This document shows positions 2,885-59,407 of a stretch of DNA of 64,000 bases, one piece after another. A program made the position numbers and the translations under genes. The notes under the pieces are model-generated. The model did not search any database. It saw only the letters and a list, made by a program, of their open reading frames with translations, and was not told where the DNA came from. The DNA comes from a bacterium (lineage in GTDB: Bacteria; Desulfobacterota; Desulfocorpusculales; Desulfocorpusculum), in contig JBBFLE010000003.1 in the NCBI GenBank assembly GCA_037481695.1, forward strand, positions 124,001-188,000, written 5' to 3'. Numbering within the stretch: the stretch's first letter is position 1; each line of letters begins with the position of its first letter.

Positions 2885-3295
2885 CTAAGTATTTAAAATG
2901 GAACCACGCAAATATCTCTGAGCTTTTTCCTCCATGGAAAGGAAGCAAGCCCCTACTTGGTAAAAGCCACCATGAAGGGGCCTTTGATACACCACCCGGG
3001 CCTTGGTCTCCACCAGATGCTCCTCCACGGCCATGAAAAGATGCAGTGTTTCTCCACCAGCAAGGGGCCTGTGTATCAGAATGCTGGCCCCTCCTTCGCT
3101 CAGATCAACGGTCTTGGCCATGCCCATGTCCAAAGGTTCTTGATTCTGGTCCAGCCAGGAGTAGGCCAAGAGCCTTTCTGCCGGACAACGTGGCCATCTT
3201 CTTCGTTCTGATGGAGGTGATGAAAGAAAATCGCCTCGGGTTTGTTCCTGGCCCCGTGAAGCGGATTTTTTTCCCTGCCCCAACCCTTTAGCCAT
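2885..3295 (-). CDS. PilZ domain protein (cyclic-di-GMP receptor)
   Basis: This is a 136-residue stand-alone PilZ domain. Both halves of the c-di-GMP site are visible: an RxxxR motif in ERRRWPR (about residues 32-36) and DLSEGG (64-69), matching the D/NxSxxG consensus. About 28 charged, disordered residues precede the domain. PilZ proteins bind cyclic-di-GMP and act on motility, polysaccharide export or gene expression; there is no partner domain here to indicate which. The gene stands alone, with an unusually AT-rich stretch (3340-3480) upstream that probably holds its promoter. Confidence 0.85.
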   Translation of the reverse strand: MAKGLGQGKKSASRGQEQTRGDFLSSPPSERRRWPRCPAERLLAYSWLDQNQEPLDMGMAKTVDLSEGGASILIHRPLAGGETLHLFMAVEEHLVETKARVVYQRPLHGGFYQVGACFLSMEEKAQRYLRGSILNT

Positions 3296-3501
3296 CGGCC
3301 GGCACCCCCTGCCCGGAATAAGAGCTTCAAATCTCTCTTCGGCGGCCTGGCATGTTTAATTAAAGGATCTGGGCAGGCAAGTCAAGTAAAATTTATATTA
3401 ATTTAGCATAAGAATGCATATTTTAACAACTTTATTTGGGAGCACATACAACATATAGGATCAAAATATAGCTAGTGCCCAGATATTGGGTCTACTCTCA
3501 C

Positions 3502-4983
3502 TTATTTTTCTTGCCTCATCTGTGCCTTCTGGAGCTTTCCGCTATAGTCTAGAAAAACCGTCTTGAGCTCCGTGAACTCCTCTATGGCCGTTGGCCCGGC
3601 CTCCCTGGTGCCATTGCCGCTTTGCTTCACGCCACCAAAAGGCAACTGGACTTCTGCCCCTATGGTGGGGGCATTCACGTACGTGATTCCCGTTTCCAGG
3701 TCCTCTATGGCCCTGAAGGCAAGATTGATGTCCCTGGTATAGATGGAAGAGGATAGTCCGTAATCCACTTGATTGGCCACGCTTACGGCCTCATGGTAAT
3801 CCTTGACCCTTATGAGGCTCAGCACTGGCCCAAAGATTTCCTCTGTGGCTATTCTCATGTGGGCCTTGGCCTCAAAAACCGTTGGATAGATGAAATGGCC
3901 CATGTCCAAGGGGTTCTCCAGGGCCTTGGCACCGCCGCAAAGGAGTCTGGCCCCCTCCTGATGTGCCAAATGAATGTACCCAAGGATCTTTCTCTCCTGG
4001 TCAGGACCTGAGACAGGACCCATCTGAACCGATTCATCCAGGGGGTGGCCCATCCTTAGTTTCTGGATGTGCCCCAGGAGTTTCTCCAGCAATACCTCAC
4101 ATATTTCCTCCTGAACTATGAGTCTGCTGGTGGAAGTGCACCTTTGGCCGGCTGTGCCAAAGGCCCCAAAAAGAATGCCTTGCACAGCCAGATCCAGATC
4201 CGCATCCTTGAGGACGATGACAGGGTTCTTCCCCCCCAGTTCTAGCCCCACCCGCTTGAGTCGCCGGGCCGCTCTCTGATAAACATCCTCTCCCGCGGCC
4301 ACTCCACCAGTAAAGGAGATGCCTCTGATGGCCGGGTGTTCCACCAGCGCCCTTCCCACCTCCGAGGAATCTCCCACCACCAGATTCAAGACCCCCGGCG
4401 GGATTCCAGCCTCCTCCAGGATCTCCACCAGGCGAACTCCACAAAGGGGAGTCAGTGAGGCTGGTTTGAAAACAACGCAGTTCCCCGAAACCAAGGCTGC
4501 ACCAAGCTTCCAGACCGGCACGGCCACAGGAAAGTTCCAGGGTGTGATACATCCCACCACACCCACGGGCTGTCTGAGTGTCATACAGATCTTGTCCGGA
4601 AGCTCTGAAGGAACCGTGTGTCCCAAGAGCCTCCTTCCCTCCCCCGCCACATACTCCAGGAAATCCACGGCCTCCTGTACTTCCCCTCTGGCCTCGGCCA
4701 GAATCTTGCCCATCTCAAGACTTATGGTGGAGGCCATCGCCTCCTTGCGCTCTCTCAGAAGAGAGGCAGCCTTCAAGAGCAACTCCCCCCTTCTGGGGGC
4801 AGGGGTCTTCTTCCAGGAAGGTAAAGCTCTCAGGGCAGCCTCCACGGCCAAATCCACATCCGAGGCCGTGGCAGTCTCAAAGCGGGCCATGAGCTGGCCG
4901 TCCACAGGGCTTCTGCTCTCCAGTAGTCCGCCCTTGCCAGAGGCGATCCACTTCCCTCCTATGTAAAGGCCACACTCCTCCAT
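3502..4983 (-). CDS. NAD(P)-dependent aldehyde dehydrogenase
   Basis: This 493-residue aldehyde dehydrogenase has the full catalytic set: the cofactor segment TPWNFP (148-153), the general base in LELGG (E248), and the nucleophile in TAGQRCTS (C282). The C-terminal PFGGVKQSG oligomerisation/active-site motif is also present. It oxidises an aldehyde to the free acid. Similarity across the family does not fix the substrate; semialdehydes and aliphatic aldehydes are all possible. It lies 18 bases downstream of the small Cys-rich gene at 5002-5307, so the two are probably co-transcribed. The ATG at 4983 has AGGGG eight bases upstream. Confidence 0.9.
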   Translation of the reverse strand: MEECGLYIGGKWIASGKGGLLESRSPVDGQLMARFETATASDVDLAVEAALRALPSWKKTPAPRRGELLLKAASLLRERKEAMASTISLEMGKILAEARGEVQEAVDFLEYVAGEGRRLLGHTVPSELPDKICMTLRQPVGVVGCITPWNFPVAVPVWKLGAALVSGNCVVFKPASLTPLCGVRLVEILEEAGIPPGVLNLVVGDSSEVGRALVEHPAIRGISFTGGVAAGEDVYQRAARRLKRVGLELGGKNPVIVLKDADLDLAVQGILFGAFGTAGQRCTSTSRLIVQEEICEVLLEKLLGHIQKLRMGHPLDESVQMGPVSGPDQERKILGYIHLAHQEGARLLCGGAKALENPLDMGHFIYPTVFEAKAHMRIATEEIFGPVLSLIRVKDYHEAVSVANQVDYGLSSSIYTRDINLAFRAIEDLETGITYVNAPTIGAEVQLPFGGVKQSGNGTREAGPTAIEEFTELKTVFLDYSGKLQKAQMRQEK

Positions 4984-13722: not shown

Positions 13723-15357
13723 TCAGGGAGCCTTGTAAGGCACTGGCTTGGTATCCGAGCCTCCACCCGTGGAGACCACGGTGACCGTACCAGGCTTGCT
13801 GGCCACTGGACGGAACTTGCCCAGATAATCGTTCATGGCCGGCCTGTAAACCAAATCCCCGAATCCCACGGCAGTAAGGGTCACACTGCCTGCTGATGCA
13901 GTGCTTCGCGCAAATACCTTGAGGGTTCTCCTCAACCTGTTGTATCTGGTCTTGTATATGGTAACCGTCTCCGGCGGACCCACCTGGAGCTGGACAGATG
14001 CAGCAGGGCCCCAGCCCGTGGCATCCTGAGCTCTGGCCCAGACAGTGTGCAGCCCATTGGCCAGGCCCGAGACGTCCACCGTGGCCTGTATGAGTTCCTC
14101 TGCCGAATCAAAGGCCCCGTCTACCGCATTCATGGGGGTTGCATTGCCGGGCCCCGGATCCGTTGAGCCTATCCAGTACTCGGCCCCCTGGATGGGGGAG
14201 CAACCTGTTGCCACATCCGTGGCCAACCCGGACAAATTCACAGTAGAGGCTCCGGCCGTAGGATTGGGGGAGGCCGACAGGCCGGTGATCACCGGTGGTT
14301 GGGAATCCACACCAAGCCCACCCACCTGTAGTTTTGCTATGAGACCACCAGGGGTTGGTGCCCCTGCATTGGTCAGATGGACTCTTCCGTCATAAAAGGT
14401 TATGGAACCCTCTGCCGAGGGGTTCAGCCAAGCATCCACGGAGCGGCCTGCTGCCAGCTCCACTGAGTACTGCTCTTTGGGGAAGGGGTAGAGGTTTCCG
14501 TCCTCGGCTCTCAAGGTCAGGTAAGGCCCCAGAAAAACAGGCACAAAAGTCTGGTAACCTGCATTCAGGAACCTGAGAAGCACATCTTCTCCTGGGAGAA
14601 TCTCAGTGCAAGCGTTTATTCTTTCCTGAGCTGGATCAGGCCAGGCTTTACCATTTATGAGGAAGTACTTGGCCTTGTAGTCCCGAGTGTTCGATACAGC
14701 CTTGCCAGGGCCGAACTGGCCTGAGGCAATGGCACGGTTCATGGCCGGATCCAAGGCGCTGTACACCAGCAGGATCTCTCTGTCAAAGGTGGTGTCCGAA
14801 TCCGCGTAGGCTTGATCCTCATCAAAGTTTTTCACCACCGCCCCGTACAACCCCATCTGGACCTGTTGAGCAGGGTTGGTACCGCTCTGGTACAGGAAGG
14901 CCCCTTCCTTGAAGCTGCCCCAGGTGTAGGTGCCTGTCTGTCCAGGGGCTACCTCATGCACAAAGGAACGAACCCTTGCAGTGTAGTTACCGGCCGGCCT
15001 GCTTGGGCTCCAGGTGGTGGTCTCATGGGGCCAGTCGCTCCAGACTGGTCCTGTGTTATTGTCCGGAAGTTTTTGCCCTGGAATCACTAAGGACACAGGG
15101 ACTCCCAGAAGGTTTGTAAGATTAATGGTAAGCCCTTCACCGGGAGGAACCACCAGCCTGGGACCAGGCACTGTGACAGGTCCATTTCCCAGGGCAAAGC
15201 CCCAAACCGGCACCGTTTCCCCGTCAGGAAGGGTCATGGAGCCCACCTTGGCGGTAAGGGAATACTCCACTGCCCCTGCCCCTCCCACCCAGGCCAGAAG
15301 GAGGCCCAGGGCCAGGCACGCCCTCCCAAGCAGCATCGAGATGGTCCTGGATCGCAT
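13723..15357 (-). CDS. multicopper-oxidase-like exported protein without copper ligands (MCO-C)
   Basis: This 544-residue exported protein has two cupredoxin domains recognisably related to its two upstream neighbours (VPGPRLVVPPGEGLTINLTN, QVQMGLYGAVV, FLINGKAWPDP, EILPGEDVLLRFLNAG). At the places where copper His/Cys residues belong it has none: the HxH positions read VIPGQ and FVPVF, and the HSH/HCH position reads YQSGT. It is followed by an Ig-like domain (about 370-470) and a basic C-terminal domain. The ATG at 15357 has AAGGAGG eight bases upstream. It is probably a structural or assembly partner of the other two, not an oxidase itself. Confidence 0.8.
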   Translation of the reverse strand: MRSRTISMLLGRACLALGLLLAWVGGAGAVEYSLTAKVGSMTLPDGETVPVWGFALGNGPVTVPGPRLVVPPGEGLTINLTNLLGVPVSLVIPGQKLPDNNTGPVWSDWPHETTTWSPSRPAGNYTARVRSFVHEVAPGQTGTYTWGSFKEGAFLYQSGTNPAQQVQMGLYGAVVKNFDEDQAYADSDTTFDREILLVYSALDPAMNRAIASGQFGPGKAVSNTRDYKAKYFLINGKAWPDPAQERINACTEILPGEDVLLRFLNAGYQTFVPVFLGPYLTLRAEDGNLYPFPKEQYSVELAAGRSVDAWLNPSAEGSITFYDGRVHLTNAGAPTPGGLIAKLQVGGLGVDSQPPVITGLSASPNPTAGASTVNLSGLATDVATGCSPIQGAEYWIGSTDPGPGNATPMNAVDGAFDSAEELIQATVDVSGLANGLHTVWARAQDATGWGPAASVQLQVGPPETVTIYKTRYNRLRRTLKVFARSTASAGSVTLTAVGFGDLVYRPAMNDYLGKFRPVASKPGTVTVVSTGGGSDTKPVPYKAP

Positions 15358-15374
15358 TTCCCAAGCCTCCTTTC

Positions 15375-16721
15375 TCACTCCGCAGGTAATGGCACATTCC
15401 ATGGGACCACACCAAGCATGGTGATGAGCCCCCCTGGAAAGATGTTGTTGTTGCTAAGCTCTTTCTCCGTGTGTGAGTGCCACATGTAGAAGAAGCCTCC
15501 CCCCACGTTGAGCCCCGAGTGCTCTGGGGGCAGGGAACCTTCTCCCCCCATAAAGGGGCTCCCGCTATAAAACTGCCCGAATACCACGTCATCTCTGGAC
15601 GGCAGGATCACAGGAAAGTTCACACCATGATCCGCCAGGTACTCGTAGGGTGCCAAATCATCCCCAGGGGCGTGACCATATATGTCCCATCCCATGAGGG
15701 CCCCTGTCCATTGAAATATGGCATCCACTGTCTGGCCCGGGTTGACCACCACCGTATAACGCTCAAAGGAAAGGTCCGGGCCGTTTCCTCCCCCGCTGCT
15801 AAGAAGCCTTCCGTCTCTGGCAATGACCCTCACGTGGTTTCCGTGAAAATGAAGGGGATGGGGATCTCTTCCCAATGTCACGACTCTCAGAAGCAAGCGC
15901 TCCCCGGGATGCATTAGTGCCAGGGCATTGTAAGGTTGTGTGGGCAGCCAGGGCACCTGTGCATTGGCCAGTGTGTCTGGAAAATTCCGGCCATTCAAAA
16001 ACCAAACTGTTTGGAAAAACTCCGTTGTGTCCACCTTGTCCAGCTTACCCAGCTCCACCAGCCTGTGCACCCTGGGATCCATGTCCGTCATGAGAAGCAA
16101 GAACTCTCTGTCATAAGCCGTGTCCTCATGCTCATAGGCGAACTTGGTTCCCACACAGAGGCTTGAGTCTGGCCCCGTGTTATGACCATCGGGCACTGGA
16201 GGGCACTCGGAGTTGGGAGAAGGGCCAGAGGGCCTCACTATGATCACTCCCAGAAGCCCCATCTCCACCTGAAGATCCGGCCGGGTGCCGCTGTGGTACA
16301 CATAGGTTCCCGGGCTTGCAGCGGTGAAGGTATAGGTGACCGTGGTGGTGCCATCAGGCGGGGCCTCCCTGGTCAGGACCCCTTCAACACCCCCCGAACT
16401 ACTAACTTCATGGCCCGGAAAAACTATGGAAACGTTTCCCGCAGAAGCTGGAAGTGAATTCTTGAGGGTCACGGTGACCGTGTCCCCCTGGTTCAAGATC
16501 AGTGTAGGGCCTGGATACTGCATCCGGGCTCCGCTGCCTGGGGCATAGCCCCACATCAGCATGGAATCTCCGTCCCCCAGGGTAATCCTGTCCTGCTTGG
16601 CCACAAGCTCGAAGCTGGTGTCCTGGATCCCCAGGATCTTGGCCCAAGCCCCTGGTGCCCACAAGACGGCCCAGGCTGCCACCAGCACCAGAAGCATCCT
16701 CATCGGTTTCCTCTCTCCCAT
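15375..16721 (-). CDS. multicopper-oxidase-like exported protein lacking the type 1 Cys (MCO-B)
   Basis: This exported protein of 448 residues has two cupredoxin domains. Domain 2 keeps HPLHFHG (residues 288-294) and WHSH (414-417), which correspond to trinuclear-centre His pairs. The position that would be the type 1 Cys in HCH is Ser, and no His/Met follows. In domain 1 the first His pair is lost (SIVFPGHE) and YHSGT keeps one His. On its own it therefore lacks the electron-accepting type 1 copper. The ATG at 16721 has AAGGAGG six bases upstream; longer in-frame starts have none. It lies 17 bases before MCO-C and 42 after MCO-A. Confidence 0.85.
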   Translation of the reverse strand: MGERKPMRMLLVLVAAWAVLWAPGAWAKILGIQDTSFELVAKQDRITLGDGDSMLMWGYAPGSGARMQYPGPTLILNQGDTVTVTLKNSLPASAGNVSIVFPGHEVSSSGGVEGVLTREAPPDGTTTVTYTFTAASPGTYVYHSGTRPDLQVEMGLLGVIIVRPSGPSPNSECPPVPDGHNTGPDSSLCVGTKFAYEHEDTAYDREFLLLMTDMDPRVHRLVELGKLDKVDTTEFFQTVWFLNGRNFPDTLANAQVPWLPTQPYNALALMHPGERLLLRVVTLGRDPHPLHFHGNHVRVIARDGRLLSSGGGNGPDLSFERYTVVVNPGQTVDAIFQWTGALMGWDIYGHAPGDDLAPYEYLADHGVNFPVILPSRDDVVFGQFYSGSPFMGGEGSLPPEHSGLNVGGGFFYMWHSHTEKELSNNNIFPGGLITMLGVVPWNVPLPAE

Positions 16722-49996: not shown

Positions 49997-51175
49997 ATGC
50001 AAGAGGTGGTCATAGTTTCGGCCGTGAGAACCGCCATAGGGGCTTTCCAGGGCTCCTTGAGCGGGCTCGGGGCAACTCAACTGGGAGGGATCGTCATCAA
50101 GGAGGCCATTGCGAGGGCTGGAATCGAACCCCAGCAGGTGGACGAGGTGATAATGGGTCAGGTCCTGCCCCACGGATACGGACAGAACCCTGCCAGGCAG
50201 GCGGCCATCAAAGCAGGGCTTCCATGGGAGGTTGGGTGTACAACCATAAACAAGGTGTGTGGATCAGGGCTCAAAGCAGTGATGATGGCCACCCAGGCCA
50301 TCCTCTGTGGAGACGCTCAGGTGGTGGTGGCAGGGGGCATGGAGAGCATGAGCCGTGCCCCTTACATGCTGGATAGGGCTCGGGCAGGGTACCGCATGGG
50401 ACATGGTACGGTTCAAGACGCCATGATCCATGACGGCCTGTGGGACCATGTAAACGACTTCCACATGGGCATAAGCAATGACCTCTGCTCCCAAAAATAC
50501 GGGGTGAGCCGGCAGGATCAGGATCTATACGCGGCCGAATCCTACAGGAGGGCCCTGGAGGCCATCTCTCAGGGCCGATTCAAAGAGCAGATAGTACCGG
50601 TGGAGGTGCCCAGACCCAAGGGTCCCCCCCTTATCTTCGCTATTGACGAGTGTCCCAGACCCACGGATTATCAGACCCTTGCAGCCATGAGGCCAGCTTT
50701 CCAGAAGGAGGGTTTCGCCACAGCAGGAAACTCTTCCATCATCAGCGATGGTGCAGCGGCCGTTGTGGTGATGTCCCGAAAAAAGGCCGTGGAACTGGGG
50801 GTCCAGCCCCTGGTCAAAGTGGGCGCCCAAGGTGCGGCAGGCCTGGACATGAAGTATGTGCTGGTGGCGCCCATACTGTCCATCCCCAAGGTGGCGGCCA
50901 AGGAGGGTATCTCACCCAAGGACGTGGACCTGCACGAGATAAACGAGGCATTTTCTGGCTCCACGGTGGCGGTCCTAAGGCAGCTGGGTCTGGACCCAGA
51001 GCGAGTGAACATCTACGGTGGAGCAGTTGCACTGGGACATCCCATAGGGGCAAGCGGTGCCCGAATCCTCACCACCCTCATTTACGCCATGAGAGACCGT
51101 GGGGCAAAAACCGGCATGGCTACACTGTGTCTGGGAGGAGGGGAGGCGGTTTCGCTCTTGGTGCATGCAGTTTGA
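49997..51175 (+). CDS. acetyl-CoA acetyltransferase (thiolase), copy 1
   Basis: This 392-residue biosynthetic-type thiolase has all catalytic residues: the acyl-accepting Cys in NKVCGSGLKA (C88), the NEAF segment, the His in [10 protein letters not shown], and the second Cys in TLCLGGGE. It condenses two acetyl-CoA or cleaves acetoacetyl-CoA. It follows meaB by 39 bases and fits the last step of butyryl-CoA oxidation. A close paralogue follows directly. Confidence 0.94.
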   Translation: MQEVVIVSAVRTAIGAFQGSLSGLGATQLGGIVIKEAIARAGIEPQQVDEVIMGQVLPHGYGQNPARQAAIKAGLPWEVGCTTINKVCGSGLKAVMMATQAILCGDAQVVVAGGMESMSRAPYMLDRARAGYRMGHGTVQDAMIHDGLWDHVNDFHMGISNDLCSQKYGVSRQDQDLYAAESYRRALEAISQGRFKEQIVPVEVPRPKGPPLIFAIDECPRPTDYQTLAAMRPAFQKEGFATAGNSSIISDGAAAVVVMSRKKAVELGVQPLVKVGAQGAAGLDMKYVLVAPILSIPKVAAKEGISPKDVDLHEINEAFSGSTVAVLRQLGLDPERVNIYGGAVALGHPIGASGARILTTLIYAMRDRGAKTGMATLCLGGGEAVSLLVHAV

Positions 51176-51216
51176 AAAAAGGCCAAGCCCATATTAGCCG
51201 TGCAAGGAGGTAGCAG

Positions 51217-52395
51217 ATGTCAGAGGTTGTTATCGTCAGCGCTGTTCGCACCGCCATAGGCAGCTTCGGCGGAACTCTTAGGGAAGTGCCCGCTTCGCGC
51301 CTGGGCTCCATAGTGATAGCCGAGGCAGTGCGCAGGGCCGGCCTTTCCACAGGGGATGTGGAAGAGGTCATAATGGGAAATGTGCTCCAAGCAGGCCAGG
51401 GCCAGAACCCTGCCAGACAGGCAGCCATGGGAGCCGCAATACCCCAGGAGACCCCTTCTTTCACCGTGAACAAGGTGTGTGCATCAGGGCTAAAGGCTGT
51501 GATCCTGGCAGCCCAGGCCATAGCCCTGGGGGATGCCAAGGTGGTTGTGGCAGGGGGCATGGAAAACATGAGCATGACTCCTTACGCTGTTCCCAAGGCC
51601 CGATGGGGGGAGCGCATGGGTAATGACCAGTTCCTGGACCTGATGATCCATGACGGGCTTTGGGAGATTTTTCACGGTTACCACATGGGAGTGACCGCCG
51701 AAAACGTGGCCAAGAAATACAGCATAAGCCGGGAAGAGCAGGACCGATTCGGTCTGGCCAGCCAGCAGAAGGCCAAAAGCGCCATTGAGCAGGGGCGCTT
51801 CAAAGAGGAAGTGGTGCCGGTGGAGATTCCCCAGAAAAAGGGAGCTCCTTTGATTTTCGATACGGACGAGCACCCCAGGGATACCTCCATGGAAAAGCTG
51901 GCAGCCCTCAAACCAGCCTTTATTCCGGACGGAACGGTAACGGCCGGCAACGCCTCTGGCATAAATGACAGCGCTGCTGCCTTGGTGCTCATGTCCGCCG
52001 AAACGGCTAGGGCGAGGGGTCTTAAACCTCTGGCCAGAATTCGCTCCTATGCCTCTGCCGGGGTTGAGCCAGCTTTGATGGGCACAGGACCCATACCAGC
52101 TACCCGAAAGGCCTTGCAGAAGGCCTCCCTGGAAGTGAAGGACCTGGATGTCATAGAGCTAAACGAGGCCTTTGCATCCCAGTCCCTGGCTTGCATCAAG
52201 GAATTGGGCCTGGACATGGAAAAGGTGAATCCCAATGGAGGGGCCATAGCCCTGGGCCATCCCATAGGAGCCAGCGGCGCAAGGATTCTGGTCACCCTTC
52301 TATACGAGATGAGGCGAAGACAGGCCCGACTCGGCCTGGCCGCTCTGTGCATAGGTGGAGGCCAGGGCTGCGCCCTGATAGTGGAAAGCCCCTGA
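51217..52395 (+). CDS. acetyl-CoA acetyltransferase (thiolase), copy 2
   Basis: This 392-residue thiolase has [10 protein letters not shown] (C88), [17 protein letters not shown] and ALCIGGGQG, so it should be active. It is the same length as copy 1 and clearly paralogous, but diverged (for example [20 protein letters not shown] against VVPVEVP-type in copy 1). Retaining two implies different chain lengths or directions. AAGGAGG precedes the ATG. It ends the mutase operon. Confidence 0.94.
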
Positions 52396-52477
52396 CCTCT
52401 TAGCTGCTTTGATTCCCCGAGATCGGGAAAGACGAGCTGCAACAACAAGTTAGCCTGAATAAAATTAAGGGTGGGAA

Positions 52478-52687
52478 CCTGGCCCGGATCATTCCTCAGA
52501 ACCGGTGAGTTTGGGGGGCTTAGCCCTCAACCCACCGGTTCATGTACACATGTTCAAGCTTAGTTTCGGAAAGAACCCATAGGTACTTCGTGCCTTACTC
52601 AGTTCATCCGAGGAGACTGGAGGCTAGCCGACACTGTTCATTGGTAGTAAACAATGCCGCTAGCCAGTTCTCACCCATTGGGCATGA
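52478..52687 (+). repeat. degenerate intergenic repeat, copy 3 (rearranged)
   Basis: It shares with copy 2 the first block CCTGGCCCGGATCATTCC, CAG, GGTGAG and TAGCCC, then GGTTCATGTAC in place of GGTACATTT. The end block CACCCATTGGGCATGAG looks like copy 2 with an internal deletion. Between them lies about 120 bases unique to this copy, including a cruciform-forming repeat (52622-52665). It lies between convergent thiolase and traT-like genes. Confidence 0.55.
52622..52665. other. nested inverted repeat between convergent genes
   Basis: GGCTAGC and GCTAGCC form an outer 7-bp stem, with CATTG and CAATG as an inner 5-bp stem around an 8-base loop. It could serve as a terminator for the thiolase and traT-like genes, or be part of a mobile intergenic element. 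Confidence 0.45.
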
Positions 52688-52693
52688 GCAAAA

Positions 52694-53338
52694 TCAGAAT
52701 ACCCCCGAGATCTGTTGGGCTGCAAGCTGCACCAGGGTCGGGGCAGCCGCTTCTGTGGTCAGCCATATCTTGGTGGCCGAGGCTGCCACTCCGCAATCAT
52801 GTACCTTGGGACGGGCCAGGGTCCGCTCGGTGATTCTCACGTCTATGGCAATGATACAGGTCTTGGTGCGGGTGGCAATGTCAGCCCCCAAGCCCAAGGC
52901 CCCACCCACCAAAGCTCCTCCTGCGACCCCGGCTGCACTTCGGGCAATGGCAAGACCGGATAGAGCACCTACAGCAGCACCAGTGACCACTCCATCCTGG
53001 ATGATCCTGTCATTGTATTCCCCTATGTACCTGATGTTGTTCTGGATCATGTAGTCGGCCTGATTGGGGTTGGAGACTATCTCATAGCCCTTGCTCTGGA
53101 TCATGCCCACAAGCACCGGCTGGAAACCTCCCACCAGGTCCGGACGGTTGGTGGTGTGCTTGACCTCCACATACACCTTCTTGGGATGCTTGTTCAGAGG
53201 CTCCAGAAAAATGGAGCGATCCATCTTCACGTCTGTCTTCATCTCGCTATAGTCGATCACCCTCTCTGTGGCAGCACAGCCCACGAGGGCCACTGCCAAG
53301 AACAATCCCATGGCGGTTTTGACTAGCCCTTTTTTCAT
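52694..53338 (-). CDS. TraT-family outer-membrane lipoprotein
   Basis: The start is ATG 53338, with GGAGG upstream. The 214-residue protein has a lipoprotein signal with lipobox LVGC (C21) and then the TraT pattern: SIFLEP, KKVYVEVKHTTNRPD, LVGMIQSKGYEIVSNPNQAD, and a Gly/Ala-rich segment (VTGAAVGALSGLAIARSAAG). TraT on plasmids causes surface exclusion and serum resistance. Chromosomal homologues in free-living bacteria have no known task. No conjugation genes are near. Confidence 0.85.
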   Translation of the reverse strand: MKKGLVKTAMGLFLAVALVGCAATERVIDYSEMKTDVKMDRSIFLEPLNKHPKKVYVEVKHTTNRPDLVGGFQPVLVGMIQSKGYEIVSNPNQADYMIQNNIRYIGEYNDRIIQDGVVTGAAVGALSGLAIARSAAGVAGGALVGGALGLGADIATRTKTCIIAIDVRITERTLARPKVHDCGVAASATKIWLTTEAAAPTLVQLAAQQISGVF

Positions 53339-53408
53339 GACTCTCCTCCTGTATTTATTCCCTTTTGCGAAGGCCGCAGGCCCTTGGGGTGCTCCAGGGG
53401 TTAAGATC

Positions 53409-54098
53409 TCATGGCTTGGCAAGCACCACCAGGGCATCCACTGCCACCGGGCTCCTGCCCCTTATGATCATGGGGTTTACATCTACCTCCTGGATGTGCT
53501 CCTGCTCCATGCCCAGATCCCCCAGGGCCACGAGACTCTGAGCCAGTAACTCCCTGTCCACGGCCTCCATGCCCCTTATGGCCTCCAGGATCTTCTTGCC
53601 CTTGATCTCCTCCATCATTTCAAAGGCATCCCTTTTCTGGATGGGCGCCACCCTGAAGGAAACATCTCTTAGGATCTCCGTGAATATCCCACCCAAACCG
53701 AACATCACACAAGGCCCAAATTGGGGATCCCTTGTCATGCCTATGACCAGTTCCCTGGCTCCCTTTACCATTTCCTGTACCAGGTATTGGGCATCCATCC
53801 CCTGTGTGGCTTGGCTAAGCCTCCTAAAAGCTTCTTCCAGATCTCCCTGGTCCCTTATGCCCACCTCTATGAGACCCTTTTCTGTCTTGTGGGTCAGCTC
53901 ATGGGAACAGGCTTTGAGGACAACGGGATATCCTATTGCCTGGGCTGCCTTCTTGGCCCCTTCCAGGTCCTGCACCAGCTCTTCTTTGGTAACTGGAATT
54001 CCATATGATTTCAGGACCAGCTTGCTCTCATATTCCGAGAGGGCCTTCTGTCCCCTTTCTTGGGCCCTTTCCAGTATCTTTGCCACTTCATTTTTCAT
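53409..54098 (-). CDS. ADP-forming acyl-CoA synthetase beta subunit (ATP-grasp)
   Basis: This 229-residue ATP-grasp protein matches the beta subunit of ADP-forming acetyl-CoA synthetases: ESKLVLKSYGIPVTKE, GYPVVLKACSHELTHKTEKG, FGPCVMFGLGGIFTEIL and EVDVNPMII. With an alpha subunit the enzyme converts acyl-CoA, ADP and phosphate to acid plus ATP. No alpha gene is in the window. ATG 54098 has AAGGAGTGG upstream. An integron-type attC site ends three bases before that ribosome site, so the native upstream sequence seems interrupted. Confidence 0.9.
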   Translation of the reverse strand: MKNEVAKILERAQERGQKALSEYESKLVLKSYGIPVTKEELVQDLEGAKKAAQAIGYPVVLKACSHELTHKTEKGLIEVGIRDQGDLEEAFRRLSQATQGMDAQYLVQEMVKGARELVIGMTRDPQFGPCVMFGLGGIFTEILRDVSFRVAPIQKRDAFEMMEEIKGKKILEAIRGMEAVDRELLAQSLVALGDLGMEQEHIQEVDVNPMIIRGRSPVAVDALVVLAKP

Positions 54099-54116
54099 CT
54101 TATCTCCACTCCTTGG

Positions 54117-54220
54117 GCCTGACTCGCTCGCGTTGAGCGGCGGCCGACAAGCGTACCGAGGAGGGAACCGCAAGCAAGCGAAGCGCGCTTGCCGCCGTCT
54201 GCTCGAACGCGGGGTTAAAC
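54117..54220 (-). repeat. integron attC-like recombination site
   Basis: Read on the minus strand it starts with GTTTAAC (RYYYAAC consensus) and ends with GTCAGGC (GTTRRRY with one mismatch). The 35-base arms are imperfect inverted complements: CGCGTTCGAGC against CGCGTTGAGC, differing by one unpaired base as in the L-box of attC sites, and GGCAAGCG against the near-complement CGCTTGTCGG. The centre is GC-rich. The stop codon of the cassette ORF lies inside the first simple site, as is typical. The length (104 bases) is within the attC range. Confidence 0.75.
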
Positions 54221-54574
54221 TGCGGACGTTTCATTCACCGGACGCTTCTCGAAACTGAACTTGCATGCGACGCAAAACCACGTGTCGCCCCAGTCCTGGA
54301 GCCGGATTAACTTTGCGTTAGCGTCGTAGCAGTGCTGGCAGTACGGGCCATCGGCCGCGTTCCCATCGCGAAGCCAGTAGGTTCTCCCGTCGAACTCGAG
54401 CCGTTCCCTCGTTCGGAGAGCTTCTTCAAGACTTCGTACCCTGTCACGGAGCTCGATGTTCTGCTCCTGAAGCTCGAGCGCGGCCTCACGAAGGGCCATG
54501 ATCTGTTCCTGCGCCTCTACTGTGGCACCCTTCTTGATGAGATCGACGATGTCTTTGTAGGTTGGCAGCGCCAT
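54215..54574 (-). CDS. cassette-borne zinc-ribbon/coiled-coil protein, unknown function
   Basis: This 119-residue protein has an N-terminal helix (TYKDIVDLIKKGAT), a coiled coil (about 20-58, LELQEQNIELRDRVRSLEEA), then RTYWLRDG and a zinc ribbon with CQHC (79, 82) and CVAC (101, 104). Such small proteins occur scattered in many bacterial genomes. ATG 54574 has GGAGG eight bases upstream. The longer ORF upstream is out-of-frame read-through of the TPR gene. Base composition (many CG dinucleotides, CGC/CGT arginines) differs from the neighbours, which prefer AGG; this supports transfer. A nucleic-acid or protein-binding role is likely but unproven. Confidence 0.8.
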   Translation of the reverse strand: MALPTYKDIVDLIKKGATVEAQEQIMALREAALELQEQNIELRDRVRSLEEALRTRERLEFDGRTYWLRDGNAADGPYCQHCYDANAKLIRLQDWGDTWFCVACKFSFEKRPVNETSAV

Positions 54575-54603
54575 GAGTACGCCTCCGCAATCTAACCTGT
54601 TTT

Positions 54604-55338
54604 TTAGCGAAAATTTTCCTGATAAAGCTTCAAGGCCTTTTTCCTGTCCTCCCTGTCGCCTGGATCCGCAGGCTCGGGCATGCTGACACACCACTCCAGT
54701 TCCTTTCTGGCCAGCTCCTTCTCGTCCATGGCCAGATAGGTCTCCGCAAGAAAAACCCGGGTCAGGATGCTCTTGGGACCGTATTCCAGGGCCTTTTTCA
54801 GGTGCTCCACAGACTCCTTCTTGCTTCCTCCGGCAAACCAAGGCAGCTTGTAGGCCATTCTTCCCAGAATTCTGTAGGCGCCTCCGTGCATGAATCCAGG
54901 ATCCAACTGGATCACCTTGTTCATCTCCTCCTTGATGGGCTCCACCAGGGAAAGACTCTTGAGAACCCCTTTGGCTTCTCCGTATACTCCGTAGTTTACC
55001 CCCAGCCAATAGTGGCAAGGAGCACAGTCATCCTGGAGAAGCACTGCTTTCTTGCCGTACTCTATGCCCTTCTCCAAGGCAGCCAGCTTCTCATCTTCGG
55101 GACTGTGAGTGCCCAACCACCAGCAGGCCCTGGAGAGCCTCCACAAGGCTTCCACGCTTATGGGATCCTTCTCCAAGACCTTCTGGTACAAATCCATGCT
55201 CTCCTTGAGTTTCGCCAGGTCCCCTCTCTTGGGCCAAAGGGCATCTGCCCTCTCCAAGAGCTCCTGGGTCTCCTGTGCCCATGCACCACCTAACACTCCC
55301 AAGGCCAAAGCCAGGCCCAGCAATAGCTTGCGCATCAT
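54604..55338 (-). CDS. exported TPR protein, TRAP-associated TatT-like
   Basis: This 244-residue protein has a signal peptide (residues 1-21, ending AWAQ) and TPR-like helical repeats (LYQKVLEKDPISVEALWRLSR, then repeats around GKKAVLLQDDCAPCHYWLGV and LKKALEYGPKSILTRVFLAE). The order resembles TatT proteins, periplasmic TPR partners of TRAP binding proteins described in Treponema. A CAPC pair is present. TRAP genes are near (11-14 kb either side) but not adjacent, so the link is tentative. ATG 55338 follows GAGGAG. Confidence 0.7.
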   Translation of the reverse strand: MMRKLLLGLALALGVLGGAWAQETQELLERADALWPKRGDLAKLKESMDLYQKVLEKDPISVEALWRLSRACWWLGTHSPEDEKLAALEKGIEYGKKAVLLQDDCAPCHYWLGVNYGVYGEAKGVLKSLSLVEPIKEEMNKVIQLDPGFMHGGAYRILGRMAYKLPWFAGGSKKESVEHLKKALEYGPKSILTRVFLAETYLAMDEKELARKELEWCVSMPEPADPGDREDRKKALKLYQENFR

Positions 55339-55428
55339 GATTTCTCCTCTACTTCAATGGCCTTTACGGCTTGGGGATCTTGATCATTCTGTCCTTATAC
55401 AACAGGCCCGGCCATGCTGTCCACCCTC

Positions 55429-56325
55429 TCAAGACTTCAAGAATGCCTCACGGCCGAACTCTGGATCAGGATAGGTGTAAAATCCCTTGCCGGTCTTTAC
55501 CCCCAGATCTCCCTTTCGCACCATTTCCAGAAGAGCCTCAGGAGGCTTGTCTTTGGGATCCTGGGAATCCTCATAGTAGACCATCTCGATATCATAAACC
55601 ACATCCAGCCCCACTGCGTCCATGAGTCCGAAAGGACCCATGTCCATGCCTGTGAAGATCATCCATGCTCTGTCCACATCCCGGAAATCCACAAAGCCCC
55701 CTGCCCACATGTGCAGCGTCTCCCTCTTGACTGCCCTCCAAACCCGGTTAAAGCAAAACCCCAGAAGCTCCTTTTTCACTGTCAGGGGAATGCAGCCCAG
55801 GGAGCGCACCCACTCGATCCCATCCTGGAGAACCTCGGGCAGGGTTGTGCTTCCTCCCATGACGTCCACCATGTGCATTCCCAACAGAGGTTGGTAAAAG
55901 TGAAGGTTCAAGGAGCGCTCGGGCCTTCCACCTGCTTGCTCCAACCTGGACACAGGGATGGAGGAGCTGTTGGTGGCCAGTATGGCACTGGGTGGAGCTA
56001 ACCTTCCCAGCTCCCTCCAGATGCTTCTCTTGAGCTCCAGATCTTCCGGGACTGCTTCGATGACCAGATCCGCCCCTTCCAAGGCCTCCTGCATGCTGCA
56101 GGAGCAGACTATGGACTTACGGCAATCATCCCACTTCTCCAGGGGTACCAGGGGCGGCCTCTTGGAGGCCTCTGCCCTTGGGCGTACCCTATTCAAGGCT
56201 CTGTCCAGGGAGCCTTCCTGGGTGTCATAGCAGTGGACATGGTAGCCTGCGTGGGCGGCTGTCATGCAGATCTGAGTTCCCAGGGTTCCTGCACCTATCA
56301 CAGCCACTTTTCTGATCTGTTTCAT
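55429..56325 (-). CDS. 3-hydroxyacyl-CoA dehydrogenase
   Basis: This 298-residue NAD-dependent enzyme oxidises 3-hydroxyacyl-CoA to the 3-keto ester. The Rossmann motif VAVIGAGTLGTQI is near the start, and the catalytic region reads FYQPLLGMHMVDVMGG, followed by GFCFNRVWRAVKRE. The usual HFFNP is altered to HFYQP, so a somewhat different substrate is possible. ATG 56325 has GAGGAGG upstream; the ORF's earlier start lacks one. It would supply the step between enoyl-CoA hydratase and thiolase in this genome. Confidence 0.88.
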   Translation of the reverse strand: MKQIRKVAVIGAGTLGTQICMTAAHAGYHVHCYDTQEGSLDRALNRVRPRAEASKRPPLVPLEKWDDCRKSIVCSCSMQEALEGADLVIEAVPEDLELKRSIWRELGRLAPPSAILATNSSSIPVSRLEQAGGRPERSLNLHFYQPLLGMHMVDVMGGSTTLPEVLQDGIEWVRSLGCIPLTVKKELLGFCFNRVWRAVKRETLHMWAGGFVDFRDVDRAWMIFTGMDMGPFGLMDAVGLDVVYDIEMVYYEDSQDPKDKPPEALLEMVRKGDLGVKTGKGFYTYPDPEFGREAFLKS

Positions 56326-56601
56326 CTGAGTTCCTCCTCTTTGGGAATTGGGAGTTTCAAGCCTACTTCGGTTGCAGATTCCAGGCAAGGTACATCAGGC
56401 CCAATCAAAGGTAGTTCATGGCAGGCCTTTGAAATTTTTTGCTATCTTGGTCCCCAAATGTCTGCTATCTTATATGCCTCCATCAAATAGAGTGAATCTT
56501 GGCAGAAAATTGGTCTGGCTTGGATCGTAGGCAAAGCAAGAGAATACCCATGAAAAGGTCATGAGCATGACCAAACACACCAAAGGGAAGGAGGAGCCAA
56601 G

Positions 56602-57792
56602 ATGAAAAGATCCATTCGTTTGCTGGCTGCCTGGTTTTGGGTTCTTCTGCTTGTTGCCTCAAGTGCTTCTGCCCTGGATGAGATAGTTGAAAAAAAGGTC
56701 TTCGAATTACCCGAGTTTTCTTTGGTAAGTGGGCAGAAAATCCAGCAGGTCAAGATAGGCTATGAGACTTACGGAAAGATGGCGCCCACAGGAGACAACG
56801 TCATTTTGATATGCCATTTTTATTCGGGCAATTCCCACGCAGCAGGAAAGTATGCTCCCAATGACCCGGCCCCAGGCTACTGGGATGTGATCATAGGCCC
56901 CGGCAAGCCCTTGGACACGGACAAGTATTTCATAGTGAGCTCGGACACTCTTTGCAATCTTAACCCCAAGCATCCCAAGGTGATCACAACTGGACCCGCA
57001 TCCATCAATCCGGCCACCGGCAAGCCCTATGGCATGAGCTTTCCCATAGTCACCATCCAGGATTTCGTGAACCTCCAGTACAAGCTTTTGCAATCCCTTG
57101 GGGTTAAGAAGCTCAAGGCGGTCACAGGGGCCTCCATGGGAGGGCTCCAGAGCTTCCAGTGGATAGTCTCTTACCCGGATTTCGTGGAGAAGGCTATCCC
57201 TGTTATAGCCACCCCCAGGCTGCATGCCTGGCTCATGGGCTGGGGCAAGCTCTGGGCAGATCCCATAAAGCTGGATCCCAAGTGGAATGGCGGTGATTAC
57301 TATGGAAAGCCCGAACCCATGGAAGGGGTAACCTACTCTTTGATGCTCACAACCTTAAGCGCCCAGGGCTTCGAGTGGGCAGAGAAGAGCTTCGAGAGGA
57401 AGTGGGCCTCAGCTGAAAAAGACCCCTTCAAGGCCATGGAGAATGATTTCCTGATCCACGACTCCCTTCAAAAGGCCGGGGCTGCTAGGGCCCAGACCGC
57501 TGATGCCAACTCCATCCTCTATCTGAACAAGGCCTGCTCCCTCTTCGACATCGCCAACGGCTTCCCTTCATACGAGGAGGCTGTGAAAACCATAAAGGCC
57601 AAGGTCTTGATGATAGCAGCCAACAACGACCTGCTCTTCCCCCCCGAGCAGGTAAAAGAACATGTGGAGATATTCAAGAAGCTGGGCAAAGAGGTCTCCT
57701 ACTTCGAGCTCAAGAGCCCCAACGGTCATCTAGGCGGCCTGACCGCCATAACCCAGGCCTCGGAGCTCATAACCAAGTTCCTGGCCGAGTGA
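56602..57792 (+). CDS. exported alpha/beta hydrolase of the homoserine acetyltransferase (MetX) family
   Basis: This 396-residue protein follows the MetX fold: YETYGKMAPTGDNVILICH, YWDVIIGPGKPLDTDKYF, the nucleophile in VTGASMGGLQS (S178), the acid in AANNDLLFPPEQ, and His in PNGHLGG. It starts with a clear signal peptide (residues 4-24), so it acts outside the cytoplasm, where acetyl-CoA is unavailable. A hydrolase role (ester, lactone or amide) is thus more likely than methionine biosynthesis. AAGGAGGAG precedes the ATG. It is monocistronic. Confidence 0.85.
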   Translation: MKRSIRLLAAWFWVLLLVASSASALDEIVEKKVFELPEFSLVSGQKIQQVKIGYETYGKMAPTGDNVILICHFYSGNSHAAGKYAPNDPAPGYWDVIIGPGKPLDTDKYFIVSSDTLCNLNPKHPKVITTGPASINPATGKPYGMSFPIVTIQDFVNLQYKLLQSLGVKKLKAVTGASMGGLQSFQWIVSYPDFVEKAIPVIATPRLHAWLMGWGKLWADPIKLDPKWNGGDYYGKPEPMEGVTYSLMLTTLSAQGFEWAEKSFERKWASAEKDPFKAMENDFLIHDSLQKAGAARAQTADANSILYLNKACSLFDIANGFPSYEEAVKTIKAKVLMIAANNDLLFPPEQVKEHVEIFKKLGKEVSYFELKSPNGHLGGLTAITQASELITKFLAE

Positions 57793-57805
57793 TCCTGTTG
57801 CCCCT

Positions 57806-57855
57806 AACCAGAGGCCTGGATTGCCAAGCCTAAGTGGCAATACGGGCCTCTGGTT
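57806..57855. terminator. large hairpin between convergent genes
   Basis: AACCAGAGGCC and GGCCTCTGGTT form a perfect 11-bp stem, with a second stem ATTGCC/GGCAAT inside. It lies just after the MetX-like gene and before the end of the convergent sigma-54 activator gene. It lacks a T-run but is well placed to end both transcripts. Confidence 0.55.
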
Positions 57856-57997
57856 CAAGAAGTGGATCCAAGGCCTGGCCCAAAAACATGCTTCCCACCA
57901 CATTTGTTCACGGTTTTGTCCTTTTTGGGGACCTGGAGCAGGCCCGGCCATCCCCCAGGAGACAAAAGAAGCAGGCAAAGGAGCTGTATCCTTTTTG

Positions 57998-59407
57998 CTA
58001 CACCTTTTCTGCCTGATGGGTTTTGGTAAGGGGGATCCCGTGTTTTCTCATCTTCTTGTAGAGAAGCGTCCTGTGGATTCCCAGGATGCTGGCCGCCTTG
58101 GCCTTGTTTCCTCCGGATGACTCCAGGGCCTTGAGGATGGCCTCCTTCTCTGTGCGGGCCTTTAGCTGAGCCAGTGGAGGGCCCAGGGGTTCCATTGCCT
58201 TGGGATCCCTGCCTCTTACATGGAAGGGAAGATCTTCCAGGCCAATGGTTTCGGACTGCACGGCTGCAAAGGCCCTTTCCAGCACATTGGAGAGCTCCCT
58301 CACGTTTCCAGGCCAGCCATAGTCCAGCAGGGCCGCCTCAGCCCTGGGATCCAGGGCTGGTTGTTTCCTGCAGGAGTCTTCGGCCATGCGCCTGAGAATA
58401 TGACGGGCCAGGGCAAGGATGTCTTCCCTGCGATCCCTGAGGGGAGGGATGTGCAGCCTGATCACATTGAGACGATAAAACAGGTCCCTCCGAAATTTCC
58501 CCTCTGTGACCATGCTCTCCAGATCTTGGTTGGAGGCAGCTATGAGCCTGAAATCTGTACGTATGACAGATGTTCCTCCAACGCGCTCCAGCTCTTTTTC
58601 CTCCAGGACCCGAAGCAGCTTGGGCTGCATCTCCAAGGGTAGATCTCCTATCTCGTCCAGGAAGACCGAGCCGTGATGGGCCAGCTCCAGCTTGCCGGGC
58701 TTGCCCCCCGAGCGGGCTCCTGTGAAGGCTCCCCTCTCATAGCCAAAGAGTTCGGACTCGAAGAGGTCCCTGGGAATGGCCGAGCAGTTTATGCGCACAA
58801 AGGGATGAAGGCGCCTGGGGCTGGCATGGTGGATGGCGTGGGCAAAGAGCTCCTTTCCTGTTCCTGACTCTCCTGTTATCAGGACAGGAAGGCTGTGGGC
58901 CGCTGCTTTGAGGGCCTCCTGTTTGAGCTCTTTGACTGCCTTGCTCTCACCGGCTATGGAATCCAGGGTGTAGCGGCTGGAGCGCAGTGACAGGAGCTGG
59001 TCCTCGTAAAGCCTTACCTTGGACTCCAGGACAGAGAGCCTCCTGGCTAGCTTTTCCACATCCCGCACGTCCTTGAACATGACCTGGCCGAAAACAGCCA
59101 TCACCCTTCCGTCCTTCCATATGGGTATTCTCTGCACCACCATGCTCTGGCCTTTTATCTCGTGGCGATGGTTTATCTCGGGTATCCCGGTTTCTGCCAC
59201 AATATGCATCCTGCTGTTCTCAACCACCTCGGTGCAGTGTTTGCCCAGTTGCTCCTCTGCCCTTACCCCCAGGAAACGGGCGTAGGGAGTATTGAGCAGG
59301 ATGACCCGCCCCTTGGGGTCAGTGACAAGCACTCCATTGTGGATACTGTCCAGAACTAACCTGAGAAGCTCCAGCTCTTGAGCAGGCTCCATGGTGCAGA
59401 TGGCCAT
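57998..59407 (-). CDS. sigma-54-dependent transcriptional activator with PAS domain
   Basis: The product has a PAS sensor (about 10-115, ILLNTPYARFLGVRAEEQLG), a coiled linker, a AAA+ domain with Walker A GESGTGKE, the sigma-54 contact loop GAFTGA and Walker B FLDEIGD, and a C-terminal Fis-type helix-turn-helix (NKAKAASILGIHRTLLYKKM). ATG 59407 has GGAGG five bases upstream. It is divergent from the SDR gene, whose upstream region has a -24/-12 promoter and palindromic sites near this activator's own start. Control of that gene, triggered by a PAS-sensed signal, is the simplest reading. Confidence 0.93.
   Translation of the reverse strand: MAICTMEPAQELELLRLVLDSIHNGVLVTDPKGRVILLNTPYARFLGVRAEEQLGKHCTEVVENSRMHIVAETGIPEINHRHEIKGQSMVVQRIPIWKDGRVMAVFGQVMFKDVRDVEKLARRLSVLESKVRLYEDQLLSLRSSRYTLDSIAGESKAVKELKQEALKAAAHSLPVLITGESGTGKELFAHAIHHASPRRLHPFVRINCSAIPRDLFESELFGYERGAFTGARSGGKPGKLELAHHGSVFLDEIGDLPLEMQPKLLRVLEEKELERVGGTSVIRTDFRLIAASNQDLESMVTEGKFRRDLFYRLNVIRLHIPPLRDRREDILALARHILRRMAEDSCRKQPALDPRAEAALLDYGWPGNVRELSNVLERAFAAVQSETIGLEDLPFHVRGRDPKAMEPLGPPLAQLKARTEKEAILKALESSGGNKAKAASILGIHRTLLYKKMRKHGIPLTKTHQAEKV

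Follow-up and report, generated by a model that had tools for sequence, protein, structure and literature searches.

The window analysed here, a stretch of 64,000 nt from a Desulfocorpusculum genome, holds a small ORF that lies between two co-directed genes and is followed by an attC-like site. Is this ORF an integron cassette that settled outside of an array, and how could it have reached this place? We find it very likely that an integron integrase inserted one ordinary cassette at a secondary (attG-like) site, within a 32-nt gap between the two genes. Secondary-site insertion is an already known kind of event, of which the window is a clean natural case.

The cassette and its attC site

The lone cassette has 473 bp and is encoded on the minus strand (window 54595-54123), as are all features of the locus described below. 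It comprises the boundary G^TTAGAT, a ribosome-binding site, an ORF of 119 aa and an attC, and was delimited by the boundary common to two homologous loci of other genomes (L041 and L040) and by our attC models, R1 and R2. The left boundary GTTAGAT (54590..54596) agrees with the G^TTRRRY of cassette left ends, and homology with L041 and L040 starts there; the first letters of the cassette after G54596 are TTAGATTGCGGAGG. The ribosome-binding site GGAGG (54582..54586), conserved in L041 and L040, precedes the ORF (54215..54574, ATG at 54574, TAA ending at 54215), whose product has a helix and two conserved CxxC pairs. The stop codon sits within the R'' box GTTTAAC (54220-54214) of a 104-nt attC (54117..54220), whose other boxes are L'' (GTTCGAGC), L' (GCTCAAC) and an altered R' (GTCAGGC, 54123-54117). 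Pairing of L'' with L' leaves a single unpaired C in the 5' arm, like in the sites used for training. We prefer a left crossover at G54596^T54595 and a right one at G54123^T54122, the alternative for the latter being two bases earlier (G54125^A54124). The preliminary description had placed the ORF between GTTAGAT and a 104-base attC, with the stop codon inside the first simple site, and both coordinates and anatomy were correct. It had also pointed to a sharp difference in CG-dinucleotides, and indeed the observed/expected CpG ratio of the cassette (1.31) was reached by 0 of 1271 windows of 473 nt, which average 0.45.

The 3' box GTCAGGC is not a GTTRRRY, and the R' box is hence incomplete in situ; the host probably contributed its last six bases. 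A cassette that has entered a secondary site should look like this, since the target supplies that half of the box.

We used two models to study the attC. R1 is a covariance model of 13 sites, 11 from other genomes and two from contig C8 (L008) of this one. R2 is a model without the R' box, made from 17 sites, of which eight come from the source genome (two from L008, four from L115, one from L117 and one from L118). The attC of the window is absent from both training sets; L041 3257, L041 4202 and two rows of L088 were left out of the training alignments as shifted rows. Training sites were oriented by hand so that the 5' arm holds the extra base, and therefore both models favour that arrangement. 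The covariation score was 0.403 for R1, vs. 0.137 when shuffled (0/500), and 0.602 for R2, vs. 0.179 when shuffled.

The ORF is followed by a site with an R'' box, L''/L' arms and an unpaired base, and R2 matched this site (54220-54126) with 34.2 bits, at E-values, rough as all those of R1 and R2, of 5e-6 in the 64 kb and 3.2e-4 genome-wide. It was the best match in the window, where the runner-up had 7.9 bits. When the 3' box was included, the site (54220-54117) was also the best match of R1 in the window, with 17.8 bits and a rough E-value of 0.055 (17.7 bits and 3.5 genome-wide). This weak score of the full model counts against the insertion of a cassette. The addition of the R' box cost 16.4 bits at the window site; at four other untrained sites it changed the score by -1.5 (L041:3257), +5.5 (L041:4202), +5.0 (L041:5224) and -7.5 bits (L040:5840). 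The strong match of R2 and the costly R' box together indicate that the site is a good attC as far as the crossover, where the resemblance stops, and a low R1 score is what one expects if the DNA beyond the crossover belongs to the host. The attC of the preliminary description was therefore matched well with the 3' box left out and weakly with it. The altered R' box also hid the site from a regular-expression scan for attC that required strict ends; the scan picked it up only after the 3' ends were relaxed. Rfam gave no match at the attC at gathering thresholds.

Could the ORF have arrived by phage, transposon or homologous exchange, the hairpin being a chance GC-rich palindrome or a terminator? 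The arms of the attC are GC-rich, the single-strand folding of the attC strands was no better than that of shuffles (z of 0.39 and -0.18), the full model gave a rough E-value of only 0.055, and relatives of the protein include members of a phage protein family and proteins of viral contigs. Nevertheless, the match of R2 (rough E-value of 5e-6), a hairpin that starts at the stop codon in the manner of cassettes, and a left boundary identical to the one behind an attC in L041 all speak against this explanation, which we regard as very improbable.

Relatives of the cassette and of its host locus

The DNA homology with L041 (a Syntrophales MAG) and L040 (a Burkholderiaceae MAG) starts at TTAGATTG. 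Identity is 25% (L041) and 47% (L040) in the 60 nt before the boundary, vs. 82% for both in the 17 nt after it. The value of 47% upstream in L040 exceeds the expectation for unrelated DNA, is unexplained, and counts against an insertion. In L041, an attC ahead of the homologue (3257-3328, 72 nt, ending in GTTAGAT, 31.5 bits with R1) directly ends in the same GTTAGATTGCGGAGG, and behind the homologue is an attC-like site (3696-3751, 22.5 bits, rough E-value of 0.003), i.e., the relative occurs there as an array cassette. Four R1 matches of the L041 stretch exceed 30 bits, one of them being a training site. L040 has one weak attC match (21.1 bits) around 500 nt downstream of the homologue. Given these attC sites, the closest named relatives of the cassette stand in an integron context.

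None of the Pfam and NCBIfam families matched the 119-aa protein, and PADLOC gave no match to the ORF below an E-value of 0.14. The protein is matched by one PHROG of unknown function (E 4.6e-10). Its predicted fold (mean pLDDT 85.9) has a long helix and, after it, a small strand-rich part, and the four cysteines of the two CxxC pairs are conserved in 12/12 aligned sequences. A fold search with this model found no match in the PDB at E 0.001 and one viral match (M4STA4); a plasmid search found no DNA match and one weak protein match. An accessory role in the binding of nucleic acids or proteins would be a guess. The gene evolves under purifying selection (dN 0.18 and a saturated dS of 2.65 vs. 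L041, dN 0.21 and dS 2.04 vs. L040).

The upstream neighbour is a TPR / TAtT-like gene (54604..55338), with orthologues in G001 and G002, and is thus present in the three genomes of the order that we examined. Between its stop codon (TAA 54606-54604) and the crossover lie 8 bases ending in G54596, which make up the left half of the host target (AAAACAGG, 54596..54603). On the other side, the attC runs directly into the right half of the target (TCAGGCCC.., 54099..54122), which includes the ribosome-binding site AAGGAG of the downstream neighbour, an ATP-grasp_5 gene of the acyl-CoA synthetase type (53409..54098, ATG at 54098). The placement of the cassette 8 bases past the TPR gene and immediately before the ribosome-binding site of the ATP-grasp gene, as in the preliminary description, was confirmed.

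In both G001 and G002, the two other genomes of the order examined, the TPR gene adjoins the ATP-grasp gene without a cassette, which is the empty locus that the preliminary description had proposed to look for. The gap from stop to start, counted by hand, is 34 nt in G002 and 70 nt in G001, and becomes 32 nt here once the 473 bp are removed. The matched flanks of these two genomes are only 69-76% identical, too diverged to read the exact joint, which is therefore predicted and not observed. This distance, and the fact that only two genomes could be compared, count against the insertion.

The empty locus weighs on the idea that no insertion took place, the ORF being a native and stable member of the operon where an attC came into being (cassette genesis). 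In keeping with this idea, the ORF is intact, shares the orientation of the neighbouring genes and is under purifying selection among its relatives. Yet, the ORF is missing from the operon in G001 as well as in G002, the protein is matched in just 11 of the 297 sampled genomes of the phylum, source genome included (the other ten matches are 27-39% identical, and eight are in one family), and the cassette is an outlier in CpG. We consider this origin to be extremely improbable.

Integrase remnant, arrays and leader repeats in the genome

A search of the genome with TIGR02249, a profile that below its cut-off also matches in all 14 control genomes, gave six matches, none of them over the cut-off. 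Hence, we found no intact integron integrase at the locus or in the genome, and the integrase that the preliminary description suggested to look for is represented by a remnant on contig C8. This remnant corresponds to two of the six matches, neighbouring pieces at G000:C8:161723-162084 (L008:16724-17085, minus strand) that cover profile positions 251-313 and 2-57, positions 58-250 being missing. Within NCBIfam, the C-terminal piece had its best score with the integron integrase model (110.3 bits), ahead of PRK15417 integron integrase (85.7) and XerC (76.4). The other four matches, on C12, belong to two different tyrosine recombinases. Cassettes with attC adjoin the C8 remnant (five R1 matches of 23-54 bits, of which two are training sites), the first of them on the same strand as the remnant. 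Among the 99 genomes made up of the source and its relatives, 39 had an integrase match at 1e-60; it is absent in the source and in the two others of its family. The genome, given as 100 complete, is in 52 contigs, and an intact copy may be hidden in an assembly gap. The remnant with its cassettes and the further attC on other contigs make clear that this genome is not integron-free.

R1 identified 15 attC-like matches genome-wide at E-values (rough) up to 10: groups on C8 and C16, two matches on C2 with around 260 kb between them, single ones on C21 and on C1, and the one in the window. The C16 array has six matches (L115:1473-5338, minus strand) and includes HicA-like, OsmC-like and Fe-S protein genes. 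On C8, attC matches face opposite ways within one stretch (L008:12555-14087 on the plus strand, 14637-15909 on the minus strand), as if part of the array had been inverted or two arrays had met. Single attC lie behind gene pairs of the toxin-antitoxin type on C21 (L118:7222-7283, nucleotidyltransferase/HepT-like) and at C2:118676 (L117:6677-6736, DUF433/DUF5615). The match at C2:379028 was first taken as a lone cassette; near a contig end, with a type I modification-type gene on one side and another ORF on the other, it may belong to an array and was therefore not counted as lone. In a one-contig relative with an intact integrase (G039:C1, L131-L136), there were 23 attC at a rough E-value of 1e-3: two clusters near the integrase and, elsewhere, two pairs and six single sites, the latter being candidates for further lone insertions. 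A finer search added a second, weaker site to two of these six, and four remained single.

A leader repeat of around 220 bp occurs in at least five dispersed copies on four contigs, identified by sequence similarity: L118:6344-6564 (+), L115:6230-6005 (-), L115:518-291 (-), L008:12254-12476 (+) and G000:C35:5082-4877 (-). It precedes cassettes on C21 and C16 and an attC match on C8, and two further copies are on C16 and C35. The similarity between copies stops at the cassette crossover (..AAAGTAT^GTTAGCCC or ..AAAGTAC^GTTAGCCC on C21 and C16). The repeat is absent from the other 28 genomes searched, and C2:118676 has no copy. Judging from its sequence, it looks like a putative attI present in several copies without an integrase. 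Ends resembling those of insertion sequences (L117:5611-5833, L118:7818-7983, L008:17990-18315, L115:552-672) are repeated in many places of the genome, and some directly adjoin leader copies and cassettes; the leader copies have perhaps spread with them. A tentative extension, which we regard as possible though rather doubtful, is that this integrase-less genome has a set of attI dispersed over the chromosome, along with cassettes at leaderless sites like that of the window, and that this set would allow the capture and expression of single cassettes in many places. Dispersed copies of an attI-like leader are more unusual than the insertion in the window.

Since arrays and an integrase remnant are found on other contigs, integron decay has occurred in this genome, and the window cassette might be the last remnant of an integron or array that was once here and was reduced by deletion. 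Against this, there is no second attC in the window with R1 or R2 at E-values (rough) below 5, and nothing of the attI-like leader is found in the region 51000-58000. The gap without the cassette (32 nt) is moreover close to that of G002 (34 nt). A remnant array is thus quite improbable, and the secondary-site insertion, a cassette with neither attI nor second attC beside it, is the reading we retain. The preliminary description had mentioned CALINs, integrase-free clusters of cassettes, as known background. No integrase lies beside our locus; a CALIN, however, has at least two attC without integrase, also the default of IntegronFinder 2.0 in the passage of PMC9024848 that concerns it, and there is one attC in the 64-kb window. 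As presented in that passage, CALIN share with our locus the attC without integrase and differ by the number of attC.

A probable secondary-site insertion and its meaning

In the proposed reaction, the cassette was a free circle whose attC, folded as a single strand, recombined with AAAACAGG^TCAGGC in the host, so that the second half of R' would now be host DNA. The predicted gap without the cassette consists of AAAACAGG followed by TCAGGC or AGTCAGGC, and the predicted empty site reads ...TAAAAAACAGG|TCAGGCCCAAGGAG..; an AG between G and TCAGG would mean a 6-nt spacer. The R' of the free cassette would be GTTAGAT, which in a reading by hand pairs with R'' GTTTAAC at 7/7 positions, G-T counted. 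As for the enzyme, a visiting element may have brought it, or it may have been encoded by the host itself, in the integrase gene that is now broken on C8.

The target triplet is either GTC, at G54123 with an 8-nt spacer, or GAG, at G54125 with the usual 6-nt spacer. Neither is the GNT given for secondary sites of IntI1 in the relevant part of PMC10127599, which counts against a secondary site. We preferred GTC because one substitution makes it GTT, from which it may derive by a later point mutation. An 8-nt spacer is also found in one attC of the source genome (L008:15776).

Insertions at secondary sites leave one recombination site and hamper excision, according to passages of PMC2426708 and PMC1382264. 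Excision should hardly be possible for a cassette that has just one attC and whose R' box is broken, and we read the insertion as old and the cassette as now probably immobile. The orientation shared with the neighbours and its own ribosome-binding site suggest that read-through of the operon could express it, and it is perhaps read as part of this operon. The attC match, the cassette-free relatives and the lack of an intact integrase among our findings thus support the view of the preliminary description that a cassette has spread outside an array.

In 2024, Loot et al. reportedly showed in Nature Microbiology that insertion at attG is a general property of IntI. As summarised in the part of PMC12901181 that cites Loot et al. 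2024, such insertions join a cassette to the bacterial genome at a non-classical site, as here. In contrast to that work, the window holds one old natural product, at a putatively attG-like site. A known secondary-site cassette is aadB, reported by Recchia and Hall (1995) in RSF1010 (pIE723). According to the passages of PMC1382264 and PMC10127599 that cite this work, it resembles ours in having one cassette, one attC, no adjacent integrase and a target-derived 3' half. Unlike in pIE723, our case lies on the chromosome of an environmental lineage, in the gap of an operon, and has a gene of unknown function where pIE723 has one for resistance. The toxin-antitoxin cassette of Shewanella oneidensis is another natural chromosomal insertion outside an array in the account of PMC1382264, where this species keeps a functional integron; here, the sole integrase found is a remnant.

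Well-bounded natural cases of cassettes settling in operons are needed to judge the input of integrons to the ordinary chromosome. Here, both ends, an array relative, two cassette-free relatives and a broken integrase can all be demonstrated together. Full attC models are weak on such sites because host DNA replaces one box, and the model without the R' box (rough E-value of 5e-6 here) suggests a route to the systematic counting of these insertions. The broken integrase and the intact frame of the cassette fit a cassette that has become a host gene.
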